This document shows positions 3,661-26,770 of a stretch of DNA of 28,650 bases, in pieces. The translations under genes were made by a program, and so were the position numbers. Each line of letters begins with the position of its first letter. The stretch's first letter is position 1. The notes below the pieces were generated by a model, which had not been told where the DNA came from, searched no databases, and saw nothing but the letters and a program-made list of their open reading frames with translations. This stretch comes from a virus. The stretch spans positions 1 through 28,650 of IMG/VR virus record IMGVR_UViG_3300048010_000208; one strand, given 5' to 3'.

Positions 3661-3954
3661 ATGTCACGCTTAGCACGAGATGTTAACTCTTCAGCTATCC
3701 AATGCCTTCGGCCTGGCACAACTCAAACGGTCGCTGTCTCTAGTTCTGCTAGCTCTTCCTCTGCTGTTACTCAGCGTGTAGCACGCATTGTTGCCACTGT
3801 AGACGTACACATTAGCGTCTCAGGCACAGCTACCACTAGCGACTATTACATTCCCTCTAACACTGTAGAGTTTATCCACACTTATTCAGGAGACACCATT
3901 AGCTTTATCACTGGCGGAAGTTCAGGCACAGCTTACGTATCGGAGATGGACTAA
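3661..3954 (+). CDS. Small virion protein, possible capsid decoration
   Basis: A 97-residue protein with a Ser/Thr/Val-rich, beta-strand-like sequence and the C-terminal stretch YYIPSNTVEFIHTYSGDTIS ending in GGSSGTAYVSEMD, a pattern I recall from small structural proteins next to podophage capsid genes. It has AAGGAGA as ribosome site, right after the capsid terminator. Its last base is the first base of the next start codon (TAATG). The immunoglobulin-like or jelly-roll composition and location suggest a head decoration or minor virion protein; no direct evidence of which. Confidence 0.6.
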   Translation: MSRLARDVNSSAIQCLRPGTTQTVAVSSSASSSSAVTQRVARIVATVDVHISVSGTATTSDYYIPSNTVEFIHTYSGDTISFITGGSSGTAYVSEMD

Positions 3955-6900
3955 TGTTTTTTGGCTCTAGGCTTAACAGACTGGCTACGTCTATTAGGCG
4001 AGGAATATCTAAATACTCTGTTGGTTCTGACAACCCCGGTCTTGTCTTTGACTTCATTGATAACTTTTATCAGAAGGACAAGAACCAGACTGTCAACTTT
4101 GATGGAGCCATAAACCACGCCCGTGCTGGCAATGCCACTATGACGGACGGCTATGGGCCTGAGCTTGTTACCAATGGTGGGTTCGACAGTGATTCGGACT
4201 GGACTAAGGGTACAGGCTGGAGTATTTCTGGTGGTGTTGCTGTTGCTGAAGGTTCTACTAGTGACGGTCGTTACTTAGAGCAAGACATTAACTTGGTTAG
4301 TGGCAAAACATACTCTTACGAAATAAACGTAAGCGGAAGCCTAACGGGATCAAACTATTTGTCCTTTAGGTTTGGCGGTACAAGTGATGACTTCACTATT
4401 ACAAGCGGCTCTGGCCTAATTAGAGGAAACGTAACTGCGTCAGGCAGTGGTAACTTACGCATTAGATCAGAGGCTTCTTCTACAGACATTACCATAGACA
4501 ACGTATCAGTACGCGAGATGCCTGTACTCAAGTGGGCGCCGCATAATCTGCTGACGTACTCTGAGGATTTTAGTAATTCTTATTGGACGAGTCCTGATGT
4601 TGGGCTTTCGACTACCGCAGATCAGATAGCCGCACCGAACGGCACCTTGACTGCGGATAAAATTACAAACGACACGTCGTCGGATAAACACGCATTTCAG
4701 CAGTCTTGGGGTAGCGATGTAGTTGCTGACACACGTTTTGTTTTTAGTTTCTACGCAAAAGACATAGACGCTAGATATTGTTATGTTGGTTTACGTGGGG
4801 CTGTTAACCACCATGTTTTTGCTGAATTTGATTTAACAGGGGAAACAGTCAGCAGGACTTCAAGTCTTGGTACATGGACTATTAACAGCACTTCTATAAT
4901 GGATGTTGGTTCTGGGTGGTACAAATGCACTCTAGATTTTAACGCTGGTTCAATTATTTCTTCTAGTTTTTACTGGCTTGGTATATCCGATGGTTCTGCA
5001 AATGTAGCTGGAAGTGGAAACCTCGTTTATACAGGAGCAGGAGAAGAGCTTTACATCTGGGGCGCACACATTTACCGCTCTGACTTAGGCGGCATGGTAG
5101 ACAACCCTGATCGTGGAGACTCATACGTCCCTACAGCGGTGCGTCTTACAGGATCTAACCTAGTTCAGAATGGAGATTTTGCGACGGACTCTGACTGGAC
5201 TAAGGGCGCAGGTTGGAGTATCTCTGGTGGTATTGCTAGTGTTGATTCGGTGGCTAATTCTAATCCCGCACTAACTCAAAACATAGGCGCAACTAATGAT
5301 TTCTATGCGGTAACGCTCGACGTTATCTCTACTAATGGAACAGGAGTGCTAGAGGTTTATCACATAAACTTAGGCGCAAGCATATCGTTTGATATTTCAA
5401 GCACTGGTACTAAAACAGTTTATTTAAATGGAGGAACACACGCATCAAACGGGCAAATTAGCTTGAGAGCGCGTGGTGGATTTATAGGCTCCATAGATAA
5501 CGTAAGCGTCCTTAGATCGGCTGTTAAACCTAATGCCGCACGTTACCTCCCTAGAGTAGGCCACCACGTCTACAACGGCTCCGCATGGGTTAACGAGGGC
5601 GTACTGGCTGAGTCTGAGGCTAGGGTTAATTTGGTTGAACATTCAACGCCAGATACCAACTGGACGCTTAATCGTGTAACAATGACAGAAAACAACGCTG
5701 TTTCTCCCGATGGGACTGAAAACGCCACTCGAATAAATGAGACGACAGCTACCAACAGTCACTATATATACGGCAATACGACAAATGTTACTTCAGGACT
5801 AAACTATACGCTTTCAGCATATGTAAAAGCAGATACGAGCACAGCTTGTCAGCTCTTGTTCAGCTCTACGGGATTCGGCAGTTCCCATTATGCTAATTTT
5901 GATTTATCTACAGGCACTGTTGGCTATGAGGCGGCAAACGCAACAGCAACTATTCAAGACGTAGGTAACGGATGGTATCGGTGTGCAATAACGTCAACCG
6001 CAACGGCAACAGCATCTTCTTTTGTTGGTTTTATTGTTTTTGTAGATAACGATGCGTCGTCTTCTTCCAGAATACCATCATACGCTGGCGACACTGCACA
6101 GCAAATGTACGTCTATGGCGCTCAAGTCGAAGAGGCATCCACACCTTCATCGCTAATTCCAACGTCTGGCTCTAGCGTCACAAGAGCGGCTGAGACATTC
6201 ACTATCCCATCAGCTAACCTACCGTGGCCTACGCCGCAGTACATTGGCTCTGAGTTGGTGACTAATGGGACGTTTGATACGGACTTGTCTGGGTGGACAG
6301 CGGGTGCGTCTTGGTCTTGGAGCGATGGCAAGGCTCGTGATAACGCAACAGCGTCATCTCCCTCTTCTGACTTATCGCAAACTATTAGTGTGACTTCAGG
6401 AAAAGTGTACGCAATAAGTTTTGATATTTCTGGTTTATCTGGAGGGACTCCAACAGCTTTTTGGGGCGGTTCTACTTTAGTACAAATTACAGCAGACGGT
6501 AGCTATGAAGAGTATGTAGTCGCTACCGCTAGTAGCCACGACTTTCTTATTAAAGGAAGCCAAGCTCTTTATTACGTAGACAACATCAGCGTCCGCGAGA
6601 TCAACCCCCTGTCTGTCTCTATCGGCATGGAAGGCAGGGTTACTTTTGCGAATACATGGACTTCAGGAACGAAACAAGTAGCTAGATTTTTTAGGTGGCA
6701 AATAGATAACGACAATAAACTTGTATTAAAAGCAGATTCAACAGATGCGTCAGGAGAAAGGCTTACTTCAACGCATGAAGTTAACAATGTAGCTGACTTT
6801 GCTACGTTTAATGACTTTGTATACGAAGGTGTTTTGCAAAGTGTAAATGTTGCGCTTCGTGTTGGATCAACTTTTTTTCAGGTAGCCGCTAATGGACAAA

Positions 6901-7130
6901 CTGGGGCAGAAAACGCAACGCTTACATCATTAGTTGACTTATCTGCTACCGACTTGGATCTCGTTGACGACGACTACATGGGAACCATCAGCACCTTCCG
7001 TGTATGGGACAAAGACTTAGGTGACGACGGGCTTGTAGAGGCAACCAATCCATCGCTAGAGCCATCCCTGAGCCTAACCTTTGAAGGCACTGGCACTAAC
7101 TCATTCGTAGTGAACAACTGGAGCGAATAA
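3954..7130 (+). CDS. Large modular carbohydrate-binding virion protein
   Basis: A 1058-residue protein built from repeated modules. Type A units, each opening with NGxFD...W and closing with IDNVSV or VDNISV, lie at about 70-190, 402-520 and 767-882 and resemble CBM_4_9/galactose-binding-like beta-sandwiches. Type B units (NLLTYSEDF or NLVEHSTPD at the front, DVGxGWYxC in the middle, YIWGAxxE near the end) lie at about 198-395 and 559-745. A concanavalin A-like domain occupies about 885-1058. The order is A-B-A-B-A-lectin. The N-terminal 65 residues differ and may attach it to the virion. It probably binds surface sugars. It could be a head fibre, given its place next to the capsid genes, or a tail receptor-binding protein. 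Confidence 0.75.
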   Translation: MFFGSRLNRLATSIRRGISKYSVGSDNPGLVFDFIDNFYQKDKNQTVNFDGAINHARAGNATMTDGYGPELVTNGGFDSDSDWTKGTGWSISGGVAVAEGSTSDGRYLEQDINLVSGKTYSYEINVSGSLTGSNYLSFRFGGTSDDFTITSGSGLIRGNVTASGSGNLRIRSEASSTDITIDNVSVREMPVLKWAPHNLLTYSEDFSNSYWTSPDVGLSTTADQIAAPNGTLTADKITNDTSSDKHAFQQSWGSDVVADTRFVFSFYAKDIDARYCYVGLRGAVNHHVFAEFDLTGETVSRTSSLGTWTINSTSIMDVGSGWYKCTLDFNAGSIISSSFYWLGISDGSANVAGSGNLVYTGAGEELYIWGAHIYRSDLGGMVDNPDRGDSYVPTAVRLTGSNLVQNGDFATDSDWTKGAGWSISGGIASVDSVANSNPALTQNIGATNDFYAVTLDVISTNGTGVLEVYHINLGASISFDISSTGTKTVYLNGGTHASNGQISLRARGGFIGSIDNVSVLRSAVKPNAARYLPRVGHHVYNGSAWVNEGVLAESEARVNLVEHSTPDTNWTLNRVTMTENNAVSPDGTENATRINETTATNSHYIYGNTTNVTSGLNYTLSAYVKADTSTACQLLFSSTGFGSSHYANFDLSTGTVGYEAANATATIQDVGNGWYRCAITSTATATASSFVGFIVFVDNDASSSSRIPSYAGDTAQQMYVYGAQVEEASTPSSLIPTSGSSVTRAAETFTIPSANLPWPTPQYIGSELVTNGTFDTDLSGWTAGASWSWSDGKARDNATASSPSSDLSQTISVTSGKVYAISFDISGLSGGTPTAFWGGSTLVQITADGSYEEYVVATASSHDFLIKGSQALYYVDNISVREINPLSVSIGMEGRVTFANTWTSGTKQVARFFRWQIDNDNKLVLKADSTDASGERLTSTHEVNNVADFATFNDFVYEGVLQSVNVALRVGSTFFQVAANGQTGAENATLTSLVDLSATDLDLVDDDYMGTISTFRVWDKDLGDDGLVEATNPSLEPSLSLTFEGTGTNSFVVNNWSE
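4191..4241 (+). repeat. Copy 1 of a diverged duplication (copy 2 at 5187-5237)
   Basis: I count 44 of 51 identical bases between 4191-4241 and 5187-5237, both coding the SDWTKGxGWSISGG core of type A modules. The DNA-level match is closer than the rest of the modules, consistent with recent duplication or recombination. Confidence 0.8.
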
Positions 7131-8674
7131 TGGGTACGAAAGTTAACAGTAACTACGAAGATTTAATCTCATTTGTTAGAGCTAGTGGTGGCGGACGTGC
7201 GACTGCGTTGCGCCCTGTTAGCTATGGGGACAATAACCTGCCTTCGGCATCTTTTGAAGTAATAGGCACTGGCACATGGGACGATATTGAGTTTATTGAC
7301 ACAGTAGGCAGTCAGGTAAGGCCGGGAGTCACATCTCAAACATCGTTAACCAACGGCACAACATACGCTTTATTTATAAATATTACTGACATTACAGGCG
7401 CTACTCAGGTACGCATTGATGGATTAGACGGTACAGACCGTTTGATAGGCGAAGGCGACCATAGAATTTCTTTTACTAGCAACGGCGGCACACCAAGGAT
7501 AAGGCTTGAAGATACTTCTACTTCTGTCAATGACGGGTTTACGGTGCAAAGCGCAATAACAGCTAAAGAAGTCACCTTCGATCAACCAGACGGCACCCTA
7601 ACGCTGTTCCCTCACCCAGAGAATGTCCCTAGAGTGGAATGGGACGCAGACAGAAACAGGCTTGGACTGCTAGTGGAGGAGGCTAGGACTAATCTGTTTA
7701 CAGAAAGTGAGGAGTTAAGTTCAAAAGGTCACAGCATGAACATAGACGATAACGTCGCTATTGCTCCTGACCGAACTCAAACCGCTTCTTTTTGTAAGCC
7801 TACCACTGCATCCACTGAGCACTACATTGACGATGCAAATGTAACAGCAGGAACAGACTACGCTATTTCTTGTTTTGCAAAGCAAGGTCCCGGCGACTAC
7901 CTTCTATCTTTTAGAGGATCAGGTATAGGCGCTAATCCCCCGCGGTTTAATTTAGCAACAGGCACCATTGACAATGAAGGCGCATCATCGGCTTGGTCTA
8001 ATACAAAAATAGAAGATGTAGGCAACGGTTGGTACAGATGTAGTTCGATTGGAAACCCAAGTAGTACTACGCCACTACGGTTTCAAATATCTAGATCTGA
8101 CGGCGCACATAGTTTTGCTGGTGACGGAACGTCTGGGCTTTACATTTGGGGTTGCCAGATAGAGCAAGCCAGCTTCCCCACCAGTTACATAAAGACTACA
8201 GGAAGCACTGCAACACGCTCTGCTGATGTGGCTAGTATCCCTGTGGCTGACTTTGGGTTTAACACTGCGGTAGGTTCTGTAGTTGCTGAGTACACACCAA
8301 CAAAAGTAAATGGCGATGTAAGAGGCGTTTTTGAAATAGCCGCAAGCACTACATCCAACAGAGCCTATCACTCAGCTAGTGAAGGAAATCACTGGCTAGT
8401 CAGGTCTGAAGGCGATACTCCAGCGGCCATAGATATTGGAACTGTTTCTGAAAACGCAAACAAAGTAGCGGCTGTATACAAAAAAGACGACTTTGCTGTC
8501 TCTGTGAATGGTGCTTCTGTTGGCACAGATACATCAGGAAACGTGCCTATATCAATAATAGAAATGAACATAGGTGCTTTACAAAATGGCTTCCACCTAA
8601 ACGGCCACATCAAGTCCATCAAGTATTTCCCCAGACGACTCACGAACGCCCAGCTCGTTGACTTAACATCATAG
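7130..8674 (+). CDS. Second modular carbohydrate-binding virion protein
   Basis: A 514-residue protein starting on the last base of the previous stop (TAATG). After a distinct N-terminus, residues about 45-150 resemble a weak type A unit. About 185-355 are a type B unit (ARTNLFTESEELSSKGHSMN, then DVGNGWYRC, YIWGCQIEQASFPTSYI). The remaining 150 residues look like a LamG/concanavalin A-like sandwich (VVAEYTP, AVSVNGASVGTD, SIKYFPRRLTNAQLVDL), ending in the motif common in phage lectin-like domains. It is a paralogue of the upstream protein. It probably forms part of the same adhesion structure, perhaps as an alternative or co-assembled fibre subunit. Confidence 0.75.
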   Translation: MGTKVNSNYEDLISFVRASGGGRATALRPVSYGDNNLPSASFEVIGTGTWDDIEFIDTVGSQVRPGVTSQTSLTNGTTYALFINITDITGATQVRIDGLDGTDRLIGEGDHRISFTSNGGTPRIRLEDTSTSVNDGFTVQSAITAKEVTFDQPDGTLTLFPHPENVPRVEWDADRNRLGLLVEEARTNLFTESEELSSKGHSMNIDDNVAIAPDRTQTASFCKPTTASTEHYIDDANVTAGTDYAISCFAKQGPGDYLLSFRGSGIGANPPRFNLATGTIDNEGASSAWSNTKIEDVGNGWYRCSSIGNPSSTTPLRFQISRSDGAHSFAGDGTSGLYIWGCQIEQASFPTSYIKTTGSTATRSADVASIPVADFGFNTAVGSVVAEYTPTKVNGDVRGVFEIAASTTSNRAYHSASEGNHWLVRSEGDTPAAIDIGTVSENANKVAAVYKKDDFAVSVNGASVGTDTSGNVPISIIEMNIGALQNGFHLNGHIKSIKYFPRRLTNAQLVDLTS

Positions 8675-9079: not shown

Positions 9080-9642
9080 GTAATTACACTAAGTCGACAG
9101 ACTTTGCTGTTAAAGATACGTTAAACAGTGGCGATGCCGGTAAAGTAATTCGTGGCTCTGAGTTTGAAACTGAATTTGACGAAATTGCTACAGCTATTGG
9201 AACAAAGGCTGACACCGCAGGGCCAACATTCACAGGCACAGTAACGATTCCCGTCATTAACCTGGGGGGTACAACTGTTACCTCTACTGCGGCAGAGCTT
9301 AATTTGCTTGATGGTGTTACGGCATCTACAGCGGAACTCAATCTGCTTGACGGAGTAACTGCTACTACTGCTGAGCTTAATATTCTTGATGGAGTTACAT
9401 CGACAGCCTCTGAGCTTAATCTTGTTGATGGCTCTAGTGCTGGAGTTGTAGTTAACGACAAAGCTGTAGTGTATAGCGATGCTGGTCAGGTTAAAGCAAC
9501 TACGCTGTCTATTGGTGATTGGGTAATTAAAGTTGATACTAACGAGCTAGTGTTTGAGTACAACAGTACGGAAGTATTTAAGGTAGGTACTAACGGCGCT
9601 ATTACTTCTGCCGATAATGTCACAGCCTTTGGGACTATCTAA
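9076..9642 (+). CDS. Tail-fibre-like protein with ELNLLDGVT repeats
   Basis: A 188-residue protein. I chose ATG at 9076, in an ATGA overlap with the preceding stop, over a TTG two codons earlier. The N-terminus (STDFAVKDTLNSGDAGKVIR then GSEFETEFDEIATAIGTKAD) is the usual podophage fibre opening. Four 13-residue repeats with AELNLLDGV follow at residues 69-120, a repeat common in phage fibre shafts that trimerise. The end, WVIKVDTNELVFEYNSTEVF, is a short beta domain typical of fibres. It probably forms a fibre shaft or connector in the tail or head-fibre complex. Confidence 0.78.
   Translation: MSNYTKSTDFAVKDTLNSGDAGKVIRGSEFETEFDEIATAIGTKADTAGPTFTGTVTIPVINLGGTTVTSTAAELNLLDGVTASTAELNLLDGVTATTAELNILDGVTSTASELNLVDGSSAGVVVNDKAVVYSDAGQVKATTLSIGDWVIKVDTNELVFEYNSTEVFKVGTNGAITSADNVTAFGTI
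9280..9435 (+). repeat. Four in-frame 39-bp repeats in fibre gene
   Basis: Each unit codes 13 residues around AELN-[LI]-[LV]-DG. DNA similarity between units is visible but imperfect, mostly at third positions, so the array is old or under protein-level selection. Confidence 0.85.
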
Positions 9643-17776: not shown

Positions 17777-20596
17777 ATGATTATTTCTGATCGAGCAAAA
17801 ACACTTGCCAAAGGTGTAGTTGATACTAAGACAACTGAAGCTGTTGATGTTGCCGCGCCTGTAGATATCGTTATTAGCGATAAAGCTAAGTATCAAGCTT
17901 TAACACAGGCATTGATTCCTGAGATTGAAGAAAGCTCAACGATGGAAAAGGTTATTGGCCTTGCCACTGAAGCAGGCGAAGGACTTACCTTTGGGTTTTT
18001 GGGGGAAATGGTTGCCGCCGCTAAAGCCGCAACAACAGAGGAATCATACAACGAAGCAAAAGAAGCTTACGAAGAAGCAAGACGAGAGTTCAAAGAGCGA
18101 AACCCTTACCTTGCTCAGTACGCTGTGCCACTTGAAATTGCCGCCAGTCTTCCTACGGGCGCTGGTCTTTTAAGGTTAATGGCACGAGCAGGCGTTAAGT
18201 CTGGTGCAAAGATAGGCGCAACTGAAGCTGGGCTATATGGCTTTGGTTCGGGAGAATCATTTGAAGAGCGGGTTCAAAATGCCGCAGTCATGTCTCTTGC
18301 TGGCTTTACTGTAGGTAAAGTTGTTCAGTCTGCTATTACGCCAAAGTCGGCAGGTGGATTAAAAACAGAAAGAGATGTTGCGGCTGATGCACTGCTTGAT
18401 ATGGATGACGTTGCTTTATCTCGGTCTATTGAACAAGCGCAGTTAAACAAACAGTTTACTGAAGTTGCTCGTAACTATGATGTAAAGCCTTTGCGGGAAG
18501 CTCAAACTGCTGGTGAACTTTTTGAGGGCGTAAAAAAAGTATTCACTGATTTTTATGACGAAAACGTCCGAGGTGTATCTGATAATCTTTGGGCCAGAGT
18601 TAGCCCTGAGATAGGCGCATTACTTCAACGCGCAAACCAAATGGCGATGCGAAGATCTGCTTTAGACTTTGGGGATTTGACTGAAAGACTTGTTCCGGTT
18701 ATTAAAATAATCAATGAAAGCGCGCAGGCGCGTGGCGCATTACTTGATTACGCGGCAGGAGAAATGATTCCAGCCGCACAAAAATATAATATTAATAAAA
18801 TAAAAAGAAAAATTGGCAACGAAGTTAAAATCAAAAACATTGATAACGCTCTTCGTAAACGCGCAATTAACAATCTTATGCGTGAATTATCTGAAGACTT
18901 AAATGCTGACCATCAAAAAGTTCTTAGAGAGTATCTTGATAAAAGTTACGAACTAAACACCAAACTAAACAAAAGTGTATTTGGTGCTTCATTTGATGAT
19001 GCTATTACTTATCTGCATACAAGATTAAATCCTCAGCTACGAGCAGAAAAACGTAAAGCAGAAAAGCTAACCAATGAAGGCATGGAAGATTTTTTTGAGG
19101 ATACAGCTTTCAAGGCTCGTACTCGTGGGTCTTATCTAAGAGGCGATAAGAATGCGCCAAATCCTTTTGATTATGACAACCCTATTGTTTCAGACATTAT
19201 GCGGTTGCAGAAAATGCAACAGCTCTCTGAAATATCTAAAGTTTATACAATAAATCCTAACTGGTTTTCGGCGCAAAAAGGTGCTGAGAAAGGACTTTCA
19301 AAGAATGTCCCATTAAGCCCAAAAGAGTTTATGGATTTAATGGAGTTTCAATTTCAAAGTAAAGGTATCAGTAAAGAAGGGTCTGCTTACGCAAGAAAGC
19401 AAATATCAGACATGATTATGGGTGAGCAAAAAGCTCCTCATCCGTTAATTCAAGCCATGCAATCTCTTGCCTATGCATCAACACTTGCTGGCCCAATGTC
19501 TGCAATTCTTAACCTTGCTGACGTGCCTTTGCTTGGCGCTAAGTATGGAGGCAGGGCCGCACTTGAGGGTGCGAAGTCAGCCGCTGGTGATTTAAAAGTA
19601 TTTAGACGGCCACCGAATGTTGACCTTGAAGGAATGGGATTTAACACCCAAGTGTATGGCGAATTCATTAATGAAATAAATAACCTGTCTGGTAGGCAGT
19701 CTAACTGGATGACAAAGACCGCAGAAAAAAGCAGGAAGATTGCTGATTTTGCAATGAAAGGGTCTGGCTTTGCGGCAATGGATAGGGTTGGCAAAAGAGG
19801 TGTTATGCGCGGTGTTCTTAAAAGCGCTGTTGATGATGCTAAAGCCAATAGGCTTGCTGATAACTGGGAGTTTTATTTCAACAATGTTGAGCTTGAAGCT
19901 ATCTCAGAACAGCTTTTAAAGCACGGAACTGACTTCACAAAGTACACAGGCAAAGGTAAAGATCTTGTTGAAGAGCTAATGTTTGCCGGGCTTGGTCAAC
20001 AACAACTAATTAGTTCGGCAGGTCGACCATCTGGATGGGCAAGAAATCCAAACCTTCGTCCACTCTGGGCGTTGCGTGGCTTTGTAATCAAACAACAGGC
20101 GCTTGCTTTGCGAGAAACCATTGGCAATATCAAAAAAGGAAAGCCGGAAGAAGCGGCAAAATTCCTTGGACGATATGCACTTTATGGTGCTGGTGGTTAT
20201 GCGGTAATCAATGAAGGTCGGCAAATGATCTTTGGTGATGGAGAGGCGTCTGCCGGAGGTTTGGTTAGAGGTTATGGAGACGCATGGGTTAGCTTGCTAA
20301 CAGCTAACACCATTGGTCTTAATGACTATCAATATGGCAAGCTTCAAGAAGAAGGTCTTATTCCAACTCTTGTGAAGGGAAGTATTCCTATTGTTGTTTC
20401 TCGACCAGCAGAAATCCTGTCAACTGCCGTTGAAGTAATTGATGGAGATCGCCCAGCTCAGGCGTTTGTTACAGAAGCTTCGCCAGGCATTAAACAAATT
20501 TTGCGTTTTACTAGAAATGTAGCTGAAGCTACTGACCAAGTAGTAATTAGTGATGCCGCAAAAGAAATGCTAAGAAAAGTTAACCCCGAGCCTTAG
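17777..20596 (+). CDS. Large internal virion/ejection protein
   Basis: A 939-residue, largely helical protein, the third of the ejection-type genes (the T7 gp16 position). I see no lytic transglycosylase motif. The motif [VI]ISDxAK appears three times: residues 2-8 (IISDRAK), 32-38 (VISDKAK) and 923-929 (VISDAAK), so both ends carry it. Ala-rich amphipathic helices fill about 45-180. A long basic, Asn/Lys-rich helical part follows (about 330-450), and a Gly-rich hydrophobic patch near 805-830 (FLGRYALYGAGGYAVINEG) could contact membrane. Start supported by GGAGA upstream. Its stop codon overlaps that of the convergent NinG gene. Confidence 0.7.
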   Translation: MIISDRAKTLAKGVVDTKTTEAVDVAAPVDIVISDKAKYQALTQALIPEIEESSTMEKVIGLATEAGEGLTFGFLGEMVAAAKAATTEESYNEAKEAYEEARREFKERNPYLAQYAVPLEIAASLPTGAGLLRLMARAGVKSGAKIGATEAGLYGFGSGESFEERVQNAAVMSLAGFTVGKVVQSAITPKSAGGLKTERDVAADALLDMDDVALSRSIEQAQLNKQFTEVARNYDVKPLREAQTAGELFEGVKKVFTDFYDENVRGVSDNLWARVSPEIGALLQRANQMAMRRSALDFGDLTERLVPVIKIINESAQARGALLDYAAGEMIPAAQKYNINKIKRKIGNEVKIKNIDNALRKRAINNLMRELSEDLNADHQKVLREYLDKSYELNTKLNKSVFGASFDDAITYLHTRLNPQLRAEKRKAEKLTNEGMEDFFEDTAFKARTRGSYLRGDKNAPNPFDYDNPIVSDIMRLQKMQQLSEISKVYTINPNWFSAQKGAEKGLSKNVPLSPKEFMDLMEFQFQSKGISKEGSAYARKQISDMIMGEQKAPHPLIQAMQSLAYASTLAGPMSAILNLADVPLLGAKYGGRAALEGAKSAAGDLKVFRRPPNVDLEGMGFNTQVYGEFINEINNLSGRQSNWMTKTAEKSRKIADFAMKGSGFAAMDRVGKRGVMRGVLKSAVDDAKANRLADNWEFYFNNVELEAISEQLLKHGTDFTKYTGKGKDLVEELMFAGLGQQQLISSAGRPSGWARNPNLRPLWALRGFVIKQQALALRETIGNIKKGKPEEAAKFLGRYALYGAGGYAVINEGRQMIFGDGEASAGGLVRGYGDAWVSLLTANTIGLNDYQYGKLQEEGLIPTLVKGSIPIVVSRPAEILSTAVEVIDGDRPAQAFVTEASPGIKQILRFTRNVAEATDQVVISDAAKEMLRKVNPEP

Positions 20597-21018
20597 TCCC
20601 AACTCACAAACTCTAGCCAACCTTTCACCCCTGCCGCCCTGTCGTTCTCCATACGGGTGGCTTCTGCCTTGTAATGCTTGGCTATCTCTTTAACTTCCTT
20701 GTGCGCTCGCTTAGCTAAGTCAATGTTCTCAGCCTTTTCTCTAATTAACTCAAGAGCACCTTCGCCGTAGGTATCAATGTAATGACGCACAAAGTAATCT
20801 GGGCTACTACCAAATCGTTGATGACATCCGTAACAGTGAGCAAAAGCGTTCAAGCCATCGTAACGTAAAGCCTTCTTAGCTCGACTAAAGTAGTGCGAAC
20901 AATGAAGCCCCACACTATTTTCTTCGTATTGCTTGCCACACCCTTGGCATTTAAATTCATTACGCATACGAACGCATCTACTAAACCAGTGATCTGCCGC
21001 TGTTCTTTTTAGTTTCAT
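20593..21018 (-). CDS. ninG: NinG-like recombination protein
   Basis: A 141-residue protein. KCQGCGK (Cys 24, 27), LHCSHYFSRAKKALRYDGLN (38-57) and HCYGCHQRF (Cys 62, 65), then DYFVRHYIDTYGEGALELI, match the lambda NinG (Rap) layout: a zinc-bound HNH-related core followed by a helix that reads out the conserved Tyr-Gly. NinG of lambda promotes branch resolution during recombination. This is shorter than lambda NinG and lacks its long N-terminal part. ATGA overlap with the upstream NinB-like gene supports a two-gene recombination unit. The stop overlaps the convergent late gene. Confidence 0.82.
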   Translation of the reverse strand: MKLKRTAADHWFSRCVRMRNEFKCQGCGKQYEENSVGLHCSHYFSRAKKALRYDGLNAFAHCYGCHQRFGSSPDYFVRHYIDTYGEGALELIREKAENIDLAKRAHKEVKEIAKHYKAEATRMENDRAAGVKGWLEFVSWD

Positions 21019-21440
21019 TGCAATTGATCCTTTAGTTGTTGAGGGAATGGTACATATACCTGCTTATGCTCTGAGAGCCACCTAATTAGCACCTCAGCGG
21101 CTTCCGATAGTTGGATAGGGGTTAGCTTAGTTGTCGATGACTTGCCGTGCATGGCCTTTATAACGGGCTTGTACAGGGTCTCTTTAACTAATACTTCTGT
21201 AAAGGGTATCTCAAAGCTATCACTGAACGGGTGTCGCACGTAATGCCCTGCATCATTTAGTTCGGTAGCTACCTGTCTAAACCACAGGTGCATTGCATTG
21301 TTCTGTCTGTCGCTACGCGTAGTGTCCTTAATGTAGTACAGGATTGTTTTGCCTTCCTGCCATTGATCGAGAACAAAGTTAATGAAGAAGTTAACCTTAT
21401 CTTTGCTGTCTACTATCCAGCGGTGTGATGGTTCTGTCAT
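21015..21440 (-). CDS. ninB: NinB-like recombination mediator
   Basis: A 141-residue protein with AAGGAG upstream. The stretch TRSDRQNNAMHLWFRQVATE resembles the lambda NinB (Orf) RSxDQNxxLW motif, and KLTPIQLSEAAEVLIRWLSE with VPFPQ at the end resembles the C-terminal helix and tail of that family. NinB/Orf binds single-stranded DNA and SSB and loads recombinases, substituting for RecFOR. Similarity is by motif only. Adjacent NinG and the ERF and SSB-like genes upstream in the genome make this role likely. Confidence 0.75.
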   Translation of the reverse strand: MTEPSHRWIVDSKDKVNFFINFVLDQWQEGKTILYYIKDTTRSDRQNNAMHLWFRQVATELNDAGHYVRHPFSDSFEIPFTEVLVKETLYKPVIKAMHGKSSTTKLTPIQLSEAAEVLIRWLSEHKQVYVPFPQQLKDQLQ

Positions 21441-21456
21441 TTTATCTCCTTTTTAG

Positions 21457-21483
21457 TTTGCCCAGTTTGCCCAGTTTGCCCAG
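21457..21483 (-). repeat. Left iteron array, 3 x 9 bp
   Basis: TTTGCCCAG three times head to tail on the plus strand (CTGGGCAAA on the minus strand), all perfect. It starts 17 bases from the NinB start codon and 7 bases from its ribosome site. Confidence 0.93.
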
Positions 21484-21564
21484 CTGGCCTCTAATGCCCT
21501 AGTTTTACCCCCCTATTTGTCGCACTAAGCCCGCTTCCGGCGACGCGACGGGCACGCTAAACGT

Positions 21565-21628
21565 GGGCATTAGGGGCATTCTGGAGGTTTTGGGGCATTC
21601 TGGGCATTCTGGGCATTCTGGGCATTCT
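21565..21628 (+). repeat. Right iteron array, up to six GGGCATTct units
   Basis: GGGCATTCT is repeated four times without gap at 21593-21628. One more perfect copy is at 21574-21582 and a variant GGGCATTAG at 21565-21573. The array ends 2 bases before the stop codon of the ATPase gene. Confidence 0.93.
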
Positions 21629-21630
21629 GA

Positions 21631-22770
21631 TTACATTGGTATCCAGCGATAGTATTTTTTGCCGTGTGCGCCTCTGCGCTCTAACTTAAGGTTGTTACCC
21701 TTGAGTAACTCCATACAGGTGCGAAGCATCTTCTTTGTCACACCGTTTGGATTGATCTCGTTATCGTTAAGCATGTCAAACAAGTCTGCCTGTGAGTAAA
21801 GCTTGTGAGCTTTCATCGAACTGCTAAGGAATATGTACTCGTCTTCGTATTTAGCGATGGCTTTGCCAATCTTAATCTGCGCAGACTGTTTAGCTTTCAT
21901 GTCGCTGATGTCATCGGGACTCATAAATTCAACAGAGTCTACGGATTCTTCGTAGCCCACTGTCTCGCTTGTTTGCTTGTACTTGAACCCACCCTCGAAA
22001 CTGATCTGGCTTCTATCTTTTTCATTGATTACTAACAACTCTTGGTGGAATGCAAACTTATCATTGAGAGGATCAAGTCCAAACATGTTGTCGACATCAG
22101 CCTTGAGATCTCCAACACCTTCAAAAATGAGTCGTCCATCCATGCTTCGATGCTTGTTGCAATGCCCCAGCAATACGACTGTGCCGCCTGCCGCCGCAAA
22201 TTCTCTAAAGACATGAAGCACGTCACGCATTTCACCCTTGTTCATAACACCTACAAACTTCTTAAGCGTGTCACAGATAACGATCTTGCCGTCTGCTTCA
22301 CCCTCTTCCCGGATAGCATTAAGCAATTCGAGCGCCTGATTGGTGTTCCTAAGGTATGGATCGTTGCTGTTTGCCAGCGTAACCATTGTCATGCCGTGGC
22401 GCTTACCTAGTTTAGCTTTCTGCAAAGCGCCTCTTGCTCCATCATCTTCATTAAAGTAGATGACATCGGAGCCTTTGATCAGATTGTTGCGGATAGATTG
22501 GAATAAGTTGCCCAAAATCCATACGGTCTTACCAGCTCCTGACGGGGCGTATACAAGCGTTACGGTTCCAGTGGTAATCATGCCGGGGATAACGTCTCTT
22601 TCTTTAGCTAGACGCTCCTCAAGCTCTTCTATGCGGTCATTGAGTGCCGCACTGCGTAATCTATCTAAAGCAGATCTCCCATTCTGCCCTGTCATTATTG
22701 GTTTTAACATTGATGTTGGTGCTGTTATTTGGTTCTGCTCATCGCAGTATATTGACCACTCATCAGTCAT
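21631..22770 (-). CDS. RepA/DnaB-type replicative ATPase (AAA_25-like helicase)
   Basis: A 379-residue protein with AGGAG upstream. Walker A is APSGAGKT (75-82). Walker B is KIVICD (162-167), preceded by a Glu/Asp-rich turn (YFNEDDGARG, 105-114). LLGHCNKH (200-207) fits the conserved His/Asn-Lys motif of RepA-like hexameric helicases. The N-terminal 60 residues form a charged helix. The C-terminal 60 residues (YSQADLFDMLNDNEINPNGV then KYYRWIPM) look like a winged-helix DNA-binding domain. It probably unwinds DNA at the phage origin, whose candidate lies immediately downstream. No separate primase gene is visible. Confidence 0.82.
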   Translation of the reverse strand: MTDEWSIYCDEQNQITAPTSMLKPIMTGQNGRSALDRLRSAALNDRIEELEERLAKERDVIPGMITTGTVTLVYAPSGAGKTVWILGNLFQSIRNNLIKGSDVIYFNEDDGARGALQKAKLGKRHGMTMVTLANSNDPYLRNTNQALELLNAIREEGEADGKIVICDTLKKFVGVMNKGEMRDVLHVFREFAAAGGTVVLLGHCNKHRSMDGRLIFEGVGDLKADVDNMFGLDPLNDKFAFHQELLVINEKDRSQISFEGGFKYKQTSETVGYEESVDSVEFMSPDDISDMKAKQSAQIKIGKAIAKYEDEYIFLSSSMKAHKLYSQADLFDMLNDNEINPNGVTKKMLRTCMELLKGNNLKLERRGAHGKKYYRWIPM

Positions 22771-22916: not shown

Positions 22917-23309
22917 ATGAGCAAGTTAATTGAAGCCTTGTTAGAAGTTCAAAAAGAGTTAGACCACGCCAAGGCGGATGCAGTAAACCCTCACTTTAAA
23001 AGTAGCTACGTTAAGTTTGAGGATCTTTGGGACTATGCCAAAGAAGCCCTGAACAGTCGGGACATATTAATTCAGCAGTTAAGCCACGAGTGTGAAGTCG
23101 GAGCTTGCATTGAGACTGTGCTGTATGGGCACGGCGATTCACTATCAACTGGCAAGATGATTGTCCGTGCAGATAAACCAACGGCGCAGGCATTCGGCAG
23201 TGCAATTACTTATGCTAAGCGTTACAGCCTATCAATGGCATTGGGTATTGGTGCTGATAAAGATGATGATGCCAACAACGCCACCACTGGATCAAAGCGG
23301 GCATGGTAA
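22917..23309 (+). CDS. erf: ERF-family single-strand annealing protein
   Basis: A 130-residue protein. NPHFKSSYVKFEDLWDYAKE (24-43) and AQAFGSAITYAKRYSLSMAL (90-109), then GIGADKDDDAN, are the two signature blocks of the ERF family (P22 Erf). These proteins form rings that anneal complementary single strands in phage recombination and genome circularisation. The protein is short compared with P22 Erf and lacks the extended C-terminal domain, as in many podophage versions. The last 7 bases overlap the next gene. Driven by the promoter directly upstream, divergent from the ATPase gene. Confidence 0.88.
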   Translation: MSKLIEALLEVQKELDHAKADAVNPHFKSSYVKFEDLWDYAKEALNSRDILIQQLSHECEVGACIETVLYGHGDSLSTGKMIVRADKPTAQAFGSAITYAKRYSLSMALGIGADKDDDANNATTGSKRAW

Positions 23310-25806: not shown

Positions 25807-26640
25807 TTATGCCGCTTCGCTGTCATACTTTCGCATGAGTTCAAATTGTGACATGCAATACTCGAATGCTTTCTGTGCATCTTTTGCCGCTGTCGTAATG
25901 TAACGAGGGTTAGACTTGATAGCCTTCTGCCATGACTTCATGTAGCTGGCATGTTGGCTGATGTCATAGGTCACACCGAGCTGAGCGCACAGGAAGATAG
26001 ATCCTAGCTCTGCAACTAACTCTTCTTTTGCATAGTCTTCGTGACCAAATGCACCAGTCAGATCACGATCAAGTCGTTTGCTGTGACCAGTAGAGTGAAT
26101 GCACTCGTGGTAAAAAGTAGATTGGTATGCATCGTCAGACTCAAATTGCCCTGGCATAGGCATTCGGATTTGGTCAGCTGAAGGTGAGTAACACGGATTG
26201 TGATGTTCTGCGTTACTTACTTTGACTTGCAGTGCATCGGCAATCTCGTTTGGATTTTCTAGCCTACTCTCCCGCAATGGCACCTCGGGTAACTCGATAC
26301 CTGTTTGGTCAATATTGAATAGGTTGTACACCTTTGCAAAAGCAAACTCCTTATCAGGATCTTTTTTATCTTTAGCCTTGTTGAAGAAGATTGCAGGCGT
26401 TGCCTTCTGACCTTTGACACTACCGCCAAGTTGTTGCACTTGGTTCCATGTCAGCCAGTAAGGCTTGGTGTAACCATACTTCCAGCTGGCAATCATAGTC
26501 ATCAGCTGATTAGTGCCATTGTATGGGCGCTTGGTTACCCAGTTTTGGTGGAGGCAAGACTGTGACTCCCATGTCTTGCGCCATGTAGTCTCGTCTGCCA
26601 TAGCAGACTCAACGAGTTCAACGATTCGATCGTATTTCAT
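25807..26640 (-). CDS. ardC: ArdC-like antirestriction protein with zincin domain
   Basis: A 277-residue protein. I start it at ATG 26640, with AAAGGGAA upstream; a longer frame to 26745 runs through a hairpin leader and lacks a ribosome site. Residues 1-125 are the ArdC N-terminal single-strand DNA-binding domain (RPYNGTNQLMTM, PYWLTWNQVQQLGG, KGQKATPAIFFNK). Residues about 130-277 are the zinc metallopeptidase-like domain with HECIH (178-182) as the HExxH ligands and EELVAELGS (206-214) supplying the third. ArdC proteins protect incoming DNA from type I restriction. Expected to act right after entry. Confidence 0.88.
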   Translation of the reverse strand: MKYDRIVELVESAMADETTWRKTWESQSCLHQNWVTKRPYNGTNQLMTMIASWKYGYTKPYWLTWNQVQQLGGSVKGQKATPAIFFNKAKDKKDPDKEFAFAKVYNLFNIDQTGIELPEVPLRESRLENPNEIADALQVKVSNAEHHNPCYSPSADQIRMPMPGQFESDDAYQSTFYHECIHSTGHSKRLDRDLTGAFGHEDYAKEELVAELGSIFLCAQLGVTYDISQHASYMKSWQKAIKSNPRYITTAAKDAQKAFEYCMSQFELMRKYDSEAA

Positions 26641-26669
26641 AACAGTTCCCTTTTGATATTTTGGTAGGT

Positions 26670-26730
26670 GCAACGATTCTATCCACCGGGACGTTGCCAA
26701 CCGGCTGTGAAGCAGAGGCGGAATTGCCTC
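26670..26730 (-). promoter_or_regulatory. Hairpin leader upstream of ArdC (element C)
   Basis: Two hairpins in the 117-base leader: GCAACG/CGTTGC (26670-26675/26692-26697), and GAGGC/GCCTC with loop GGAATT (26715-26719/26726-26730). They are transcribed ahead of the ArdC ribosome site. No T-run follows. Confidence 0.45.
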
Positions 26731-26740
26731 GATTGGATAC

Positions 26741-26770
26741 TTCAAAGTCTATCAAAGTTAATCAATGTTA
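26741..26770. repeat. Three 10-bp phased repeats upstream of ArdC
   Basis: TTCAAAGTCT, ATCAAAGTTA, ATCAATGTTA in succession, at the 3' end of the preceding gene and start of the ArdC leader. The 10-bp period suggests a protein-binding site on one face of the helix. Distance to the ArdC start is about 100 bases. Confidence 0.5.

Follow-up and report, generated by a model that had tools for sequence, protein, structure and literature searches.

In this marine virus genome, an AAA_25 ATPase gene and a NinB/Orf-like gene are separated by a gap filled with two rows of a 9-letter DNA word that face each other; what is their function? The gap, at positions 21441-21630 of the window (the whole 28,650-base virus record), separates the stop codon of the minus-strand ATPase gene from the ribosome-binding site and start codon of the NinB-like gene. 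We consider it quite likely that the gap is the replication origin, that the AAA_25 ATPase is its initiator, acting through a winged helix, and that this domain and the arrays are swapped together as a cassette.

The facing arrays of a 9-bp unit had been noticed in a first-pass annotation and both were recovered: three exact copies of CTGGGCAAA on the minus strand (21457-21465, 21466-21474 and 21475-21483 in plus-strand coordinates) point at the NinB-like start, and opposite to them lie three exact copies of CTGGGCATT on the plus strand (21600-21608, 21609-21617 and 21618-21626). The arrays had been described too short, since degenerate units continue inward in steps of 9 bp. The NinB-side array (21457..21501, minus strand) contains five units in 9-bp phase, the three exact ones (21457-21483) followed toward the centre by two degenerate ones (21484-21501; units at 21484-21492 and 21493-21501). 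The ATPase-side array (21563..21629, plus strand) contains the three exact copies, a degenerate fourth unit, TGGGGCATT (21591-21599), and three more degenerate units toward the centre (21581-21589, 21572-21580 and 21563-21571), with a 1-bp slip at 21590 and a partial unit at 21627-21629. The original count of at least four CTGGGCATT was slightly generous, as only three are exact and the fourth is degenerate. Together about 12 units at 9-bp pitch, five facing seven and some of them degenerate, flank a GC-rich core. The common core CTGGGCA was found as annotated, with all six copies of the window inside the gap, and so was the perfect 9-bp inverted repeat, CTAATGCCC (21491-21499) and GGGCATTAG (21565-21573). 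None of 5,000 dinucleotide shuffles of the gap held any 9-bp-period triplet of a 7-mer, let alone facing ones; the facing arrays are real and not due to chance.

Relatives were gathered by scanning viral contigs, resulting in a set of 100 non-redundant ATPase-plus-downstream pairs, in which arms were detected as CCC or GGG at 9-bp spacing. Both facing arms are located downstream of the ATPase in 98 of the 100, so that the conservation proposed earlier as a check is present, though the sequence of the unit varies. It does so in both arms together: AATGCCCAG, AATCCCCAG/AATACCCAG, TTTTCCCCG, TTGGCCCCG and TTTGCCCAC were found. The arms begin at most 40 bp from the ATPase stop in 89 of these 98 genomes; in the other nine, coding sequence has been inserted and the distance exceeds 200 bp. 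The array stays downstream of the ATPase despite a different next gene (e.g. in L009, L166 and L198) and is also kept there where a gene precedes it (L013-L018, L097, L328, L335). The bare triple pattern occurs in 42 viral contigs, 39 of which have this ATPase adjoining; in the other three the ATPase is absent from the stretch available, and one of these, L177, resembles a collagen-like coding repeat.

Two observations on the relatives can be added. Between the ATPase stop and the arrays, L013, L014, L015, L017, L018, L020, L097, L328 and L335 have a small gene whose start resembles TAAGGAGA; its identity differs between genomes, and it can be gained or lost in cassette swaps. The 58-kb contig IMGVR_UViG_3300046167_000364 (L087 and L095) carries two differing ATPase-array-NinB modules, equally oriented and approximately 36 kb from each other, which looks like a fusion of two related phage genomes, either natural or made by assembly.

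The gap had been annotated as lying beside a replicative ATPase, and the neighbour (21631..22770, minus strand, 379 aa; the proposed initiator ATPase/helicase) indeed matches the RecA-like, Walker-type Pfam family AAA_25 (E 1.8e-10, residues 44-208). This match and the invariant motifs confirm a RecA-like core with Walker motifs; the Walker A sequence APSGAGKT is invariant among relatives. The sequence match to the RSF1010 RepA helicase (1g8y) is marginal (E 0.85) and the full-length AF2 model is poor in the ATPase domain (mean pLDDT 58), thus the helicase activity of the ATPase stays putative. The AF2 model was used for the C-terminus only. There, residues 300-379 (21634..21873, minus strand) are predicted to form a winged-helix domain of about 80 residues with H-H-H-wing topology and a pLDDT of about 81-90 over most of the domain; the winged-helix feature with its three helices and beta wing is present in the model with a pLDDT of 87. 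This is a common fold, and VIA-align gave Z values of 8-9 to winged-helix regulators with ArsR/PadR-type domains. Structure searches with the wing domain matched many common winged helices with no replication protein prominent, which excludes nothing, and a comparison of the C-terminal profile with PDB sequences returned nothing meaningful.

The first-pass annotation had left the binding protein open. The comparison of relatives points to the ATPase itself, because its residue 350 (codon 21721..21723, minus strand), located in the recognition helix (residues 346-356), co-varies with position 4 of the array unit. Residue 350 is Arg in 85 of 85 genomes with G at position 4 of the regular units and Leu in 13 of 13 genomes with C, A or T, never G, at this position; a handful of Arg350 genomes have one degenerate inner unit that lacks the position-4 G. 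The only ATPase columns fully tied to position 4 are 324, 331 and 350, all within the winged helix. At residue 343, which directly precedes the helix, genomes with Gly (in a few cases Ala or Ser) have T at unit position 3 almost without exception, and genomes with Glu or Asp have T, G or A there.

As a control for ancestry, a tree was built from the ATPase minus the winged helix. On that tree the Arg/Leu state changes seven times with the base switching along in all seven cases (sign test p 0.016), and the poorly resolved NinB tree likewise needs seven changes, showing that the residue-base pair moves independently of both neighbours. The partial matrix correlation between unit and winged helix given the ATPase body was 0.46 (0 of 2,000 permutations), that between unit and body given the winged helix was 0.00; with NinB replacing the body the values were 0.58 and 0.00. 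Recombination seems to have spread a single allele of the Leu-type winged helix, hence the seven switches are seven transfers and not seven inventions, and these transfers always bring both partners, the winged helix and the arrays.

Linkage helps to hold neighbours together and is a caveat on this co-variation. The arrays and the adjoining end of the winged-helix coding sequence might simply have been exchanged together without any contact between protein and DNA, since most genomes have them side by side and often recombine in this region. We regard this as highly unlikely: no mismatched pair occurs in 98 genomes over seven transfers, while the neighbouring body and NinB are uncoupled (partial correlation 0.00), and the association persists past an inserted gene that places the arrays approximately 440 bp off in L328 and L335. 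In addition, Arg with G and Leu with a relaxed base is a chemically sensible combination, and the position is degenerate in Leu genomes only. From these sequence comparisons we strongly infer that the neighbouring ATPase is the reader of the arrays and that its winged helix physically binds them; the arrays are very probably its binding sites.

Near-identical genome pairs reveal how the two partners are exchanged. Differences in such pairs are limited to the winged helix and the arrays, where identity is 47-80% against mostly 90-100% in the flanks, and the divergent stretch extends from about -300 to +120 around the ATPase stop. L094 and L095 are mostly 97-100% identical, but the last approximately 300 bases of the ATPase gene are 65-80% and the arrays 48-65% identical. 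The pairs L051/L015, L026/L017, L019/L050 and L337/L319 have flanks that are mostly 90-100% identical and clearly lower values inside, and identity is lowest where one of the two genomes has an inserted gene. L300 and L166, which have different unit types (TTGGCCCGG and AATGCCCAG), are 47-77% identical inside and mostly 90-100% in the flanks. Since the divergence in near-identical pairs is confined to the winged helix and the arrays, these appear to have moved as a specificity cassette, in which recognition domain and arrays are replaced as a unit by recombination. The NinB-like gene (21015..21440, minus strand; phrog_72, E 2.9e-7), encoding a recombination mediator and starting right after the array, is a flank of this cassette and is mostly 90-100% identical across several cassette swaps.

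Facing copies can also pair in RNA, and the gap might act between ATPase and NinB as a long hairpin, with 7-bp stems split by AA/AA loops, that serves transcript processing, attenuation or translational switching. Each arm is an inverted copy of the other, and the RNA of the gap folds at -80 kcal/mol with a z of -4.9 compared to shuffles; this good folding is a consequence of the facing copies. Pairing between the arms is not conserved: at position 4 it occurs in 100% of facing unit pairs in Arg350 genomes but in only 46% in Leu350 genomes, and at positions 1-2 in 25-33% whatever the type; the 100% pairing of positions 5-7 is given by construction, as CCC/GGG was used to find the units. The unit tracks the protein residue and not the partner arm, and there is neither an Rfam match nor an intrinsic terminator inside the element. 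An RNA function is thus very unlikely; what is kept appears to be the site read by the winged helix and not the stem, with the hairpin being secondary. The low agreement at the outer positions also contradicts the A/T switch at the last two bases of the unit that had been annotated: the arms agree at just 25-33% of these positions in all types, and some relatives (L048, L070) have the reverse arrangement. Judged by this variation among relatives, unit positions 1-2 seem to be a non-specific spacer, mostly A or T.

Binding of the arrays by the ATPase would not by itself tell what the binding does. The winged helix might occupy the arrays as an operator or roadblock and regulate its own operon (NinB, NinG) instead of replication: winged helices are frequent in repressors, the arrays lie within the operon itself, after the ATPase stop and ahead of the following ribosome-binding site, and the co-variation speaks to binding, not to its effect. 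Against this, a consensus scan found no promoter inside the element, and the numbers of promoters and terminators, none of either being inside the element, equal those in shuffles. Furthermore, the array keeps its place downstream of the ATPase with differing next genes or an inserted gene, and two inward-facing multi-unit arrays, with the ATPase as reader, are larger than the usual operator. A purely regulatory role is therefore unlikely, but autoregulation could coexist with origin function.

The genes around the ATPase bear on a further explanation, that the gap is a partition (centromere) site at which the ATPase drives segregation in the manner of ParA. Repeats beside an ATPase with a DNA-binding domain are the layout of par loci, too. 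However, the Walker A motif of the ATPase (APSGAGKT) is of the classical kind and the family match is to AAA_25, not to a ParA family; the ORFs searched included no recognisable ParB-like or lysogeny gene; and recombination genes are found all around the ATPase. Besides the NinB-like gene these are a NinG/Rap-like junction nuclease gene (20593..21018, minus strand; phrog_5034, E 3.7e-26) and the gene for an ERF-family single-strand annealing protein (22917..23309, plus strand; Pfam ERF, E 1.7e-19), the first in the divergent operon. We consider a partition function extremely unlikely.

Thus, the gap is probably the replication origin. The candidate origin proposed from iterons next to a replicative ATPase stands as the best explanation, with arrays that are conserved and co-evolve with the winged helix, although GC skew does not support it. 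In the mechanism we propose, the C-terminal winged helix would bind each 9-bp unit with its core GGGC/GCCC, and the G at unit position 4, which belongs to the GCCC motif, would be read by R350 of the recognition helix. Copies of the ATPase would load on the two inward-facing arrays, so that rings arrive from both sides of the GC-rich core. Loading around or beside the core could then separate the strands, which host enzymes would replicate; the parts of this scheme that we infer are ring loading, helicase action and bidirectionality. A family-A DNA polymerase was not detected in any of ten relatives, each 33-36 kb long and possibly incomplete, and this fits a phage relying on host enzymes.

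Of the features of an iteron origin, regular direct repeats (5 + 7 units of 9 bp) and their conservation beside the ATPase (98/100) are present, whereas an AT-rich unwinding region is not. Such a melting region between iterons is a usual rather than a universal origin feature. No AT-rich region was found in the element beside or between the repeats, and the most AT-rich 40-bp windows nearby (70-73%) are located outside of it at approximately 21.0 and 22.9 kb. The core (21502..21562) is GC-rich and bounded by GTTTTA-CCCCCC (21502-21513) and CTAAAC (21557-21562). A DnaA-box cluster was not found in the window, which has a single box at 3872, far from the element. The GC-skew check that had been suggested gave no origin support: whole-sequence skew mostly tracks the gene strand and has its cumulative maximum near 20.5 kb, third-codon skew has no clear pattern, and GC skew is uninformative for the origin here. 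The missing DnaA-box cluster, the GC-rich core and the uninformative skew are points against an origin.

The cores of the relatives are GC-rich as well, mostly with TTTA and a run of 5-6 bp of G or C on both borders, and with a variable hairpin. Whether the bordering run on one side is G or C does not depend on the other side, both in the window (21502-21562) and in relatives; the variants next to TTTA are GGGGGC..GCCCCC, CCCCCC..GCCCCC and GGGGGC..GGGGGG, inversion of the core being considered. Candidate purposes of these runs are a hairpin, a four-stranded G structure or a strand-neutral site.

The closest known arrangement is found in SaPI Rep-ori and the SCCmec Cch2 system, in which an initiator ATPase uses a C-terminal DNA-binding domain for an iteron origin located directly downstream of its own gene. 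SaPI Rep recognises these iterons with its C-terminus, apparently as two hexamers (PMC7581432). The placement in the phage is similar, with arms at most 40 bp from the ATPase stop in 89/98 genomes, but the helicases are different (DUF927 or D5/Primase_Cterm in SaPI/Cch, AAA_25 only by Pfam in the phage ATPase). Furthermore, SaPI iterons flank an AT-rich region and the phage core is GC-rich. The best reading of this analogy is that the phage element works like SaPI Rep/ori without being a member of this group, C-terminal binding being predicted.

Phage P4 likewise combines helicase and origin-binding winged helix in one protein, alpha, with two sets of short repeats in cis (ori1 and crr). P4 alpha differs in that it includes a primase, in that its helicase belongs to another class, and in that its two sites are far apart. 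The nearest phage case for iterons and binding protein differing together is the lambdoid O/ori system (lambda, P22 gp18 and phage L), in which each protein apparently binds the iterons of its own phage (PMC8022706). Lambdoid O is not an ATPase and its iterons lie within the O gene, whereas here ATPase and binding domain are fused and the facing arrays are outside of the gene. RSF1010 RepA and lactococcal F13 GP46 share the RecA-like P-loop ATPase; RepA, however, is loaded at an origin melted by the separate RepC, and the phage ATPase has its own winged helix. F13 GP46, an AAA_25-like phage protein, is a 5'-3' helicase (PMC8965321).

RecA/AAA_25-class replicative ATPases elsewhere depend on a separate initiator or loader. 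A more far-reaching proposal is that in these phages an ATPase of this class is fused to a winged helix that reads the origin, and self-loads onto the inward-pointing arrays in the form of two facing rings, with a cassette of approximately 0.4 kb setting origin identity and an R350/L350 code setting specificity; we put this forward tentatively, as possible though somewhat less than an even chance. It may reveal a way for a DnaB/RepA-class ATPase to be recruited to DNA when no separate initiator is present. The main interest is the specificity cassette and the residue-to-base code, in which R350 would read the position-4 G and L350 would not: if true, phages would change origin identity by swapping recognition domain and arrays, using a natural code.

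Searching approximately 50,000 phage records detected no relative of the ATPase at E 1e-5. With E values up to 5, only weak matches in phages and plasmids appeared, and two of the phage matches, judged by annotation only, have no comparable gap after the ATPase gene. The comparison yields a candidate initiator, its sites, a specificity residue and natural swap pairs as ready-made controls, and would allow direct tests of origin recognition and of origin exclusivity when phages co-infect. A search of a genome collection found a partial copy only, on a short contig of a gammaproteobacterial MAG, so that a gammaproteobacterial host is putative.

Elsewhere in the genome, whose plus strand bears head and tail genes, two long proteins of 1058 and 514 aa encoded at 3954-8674 (plus strand) contain recurring similar stretches and are probably tail or receptor-binding proteins. 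An ArdC-like anti-restriction protein with an ArdcN and a zincin-like metallopeptidase domain (25807-26745, minus strand) is likely encoded by a counter-defence gene. A 39-bp tandem repeat (9301-9398; 2.5 copies, 74% match) lies within a 190-aa ORF.
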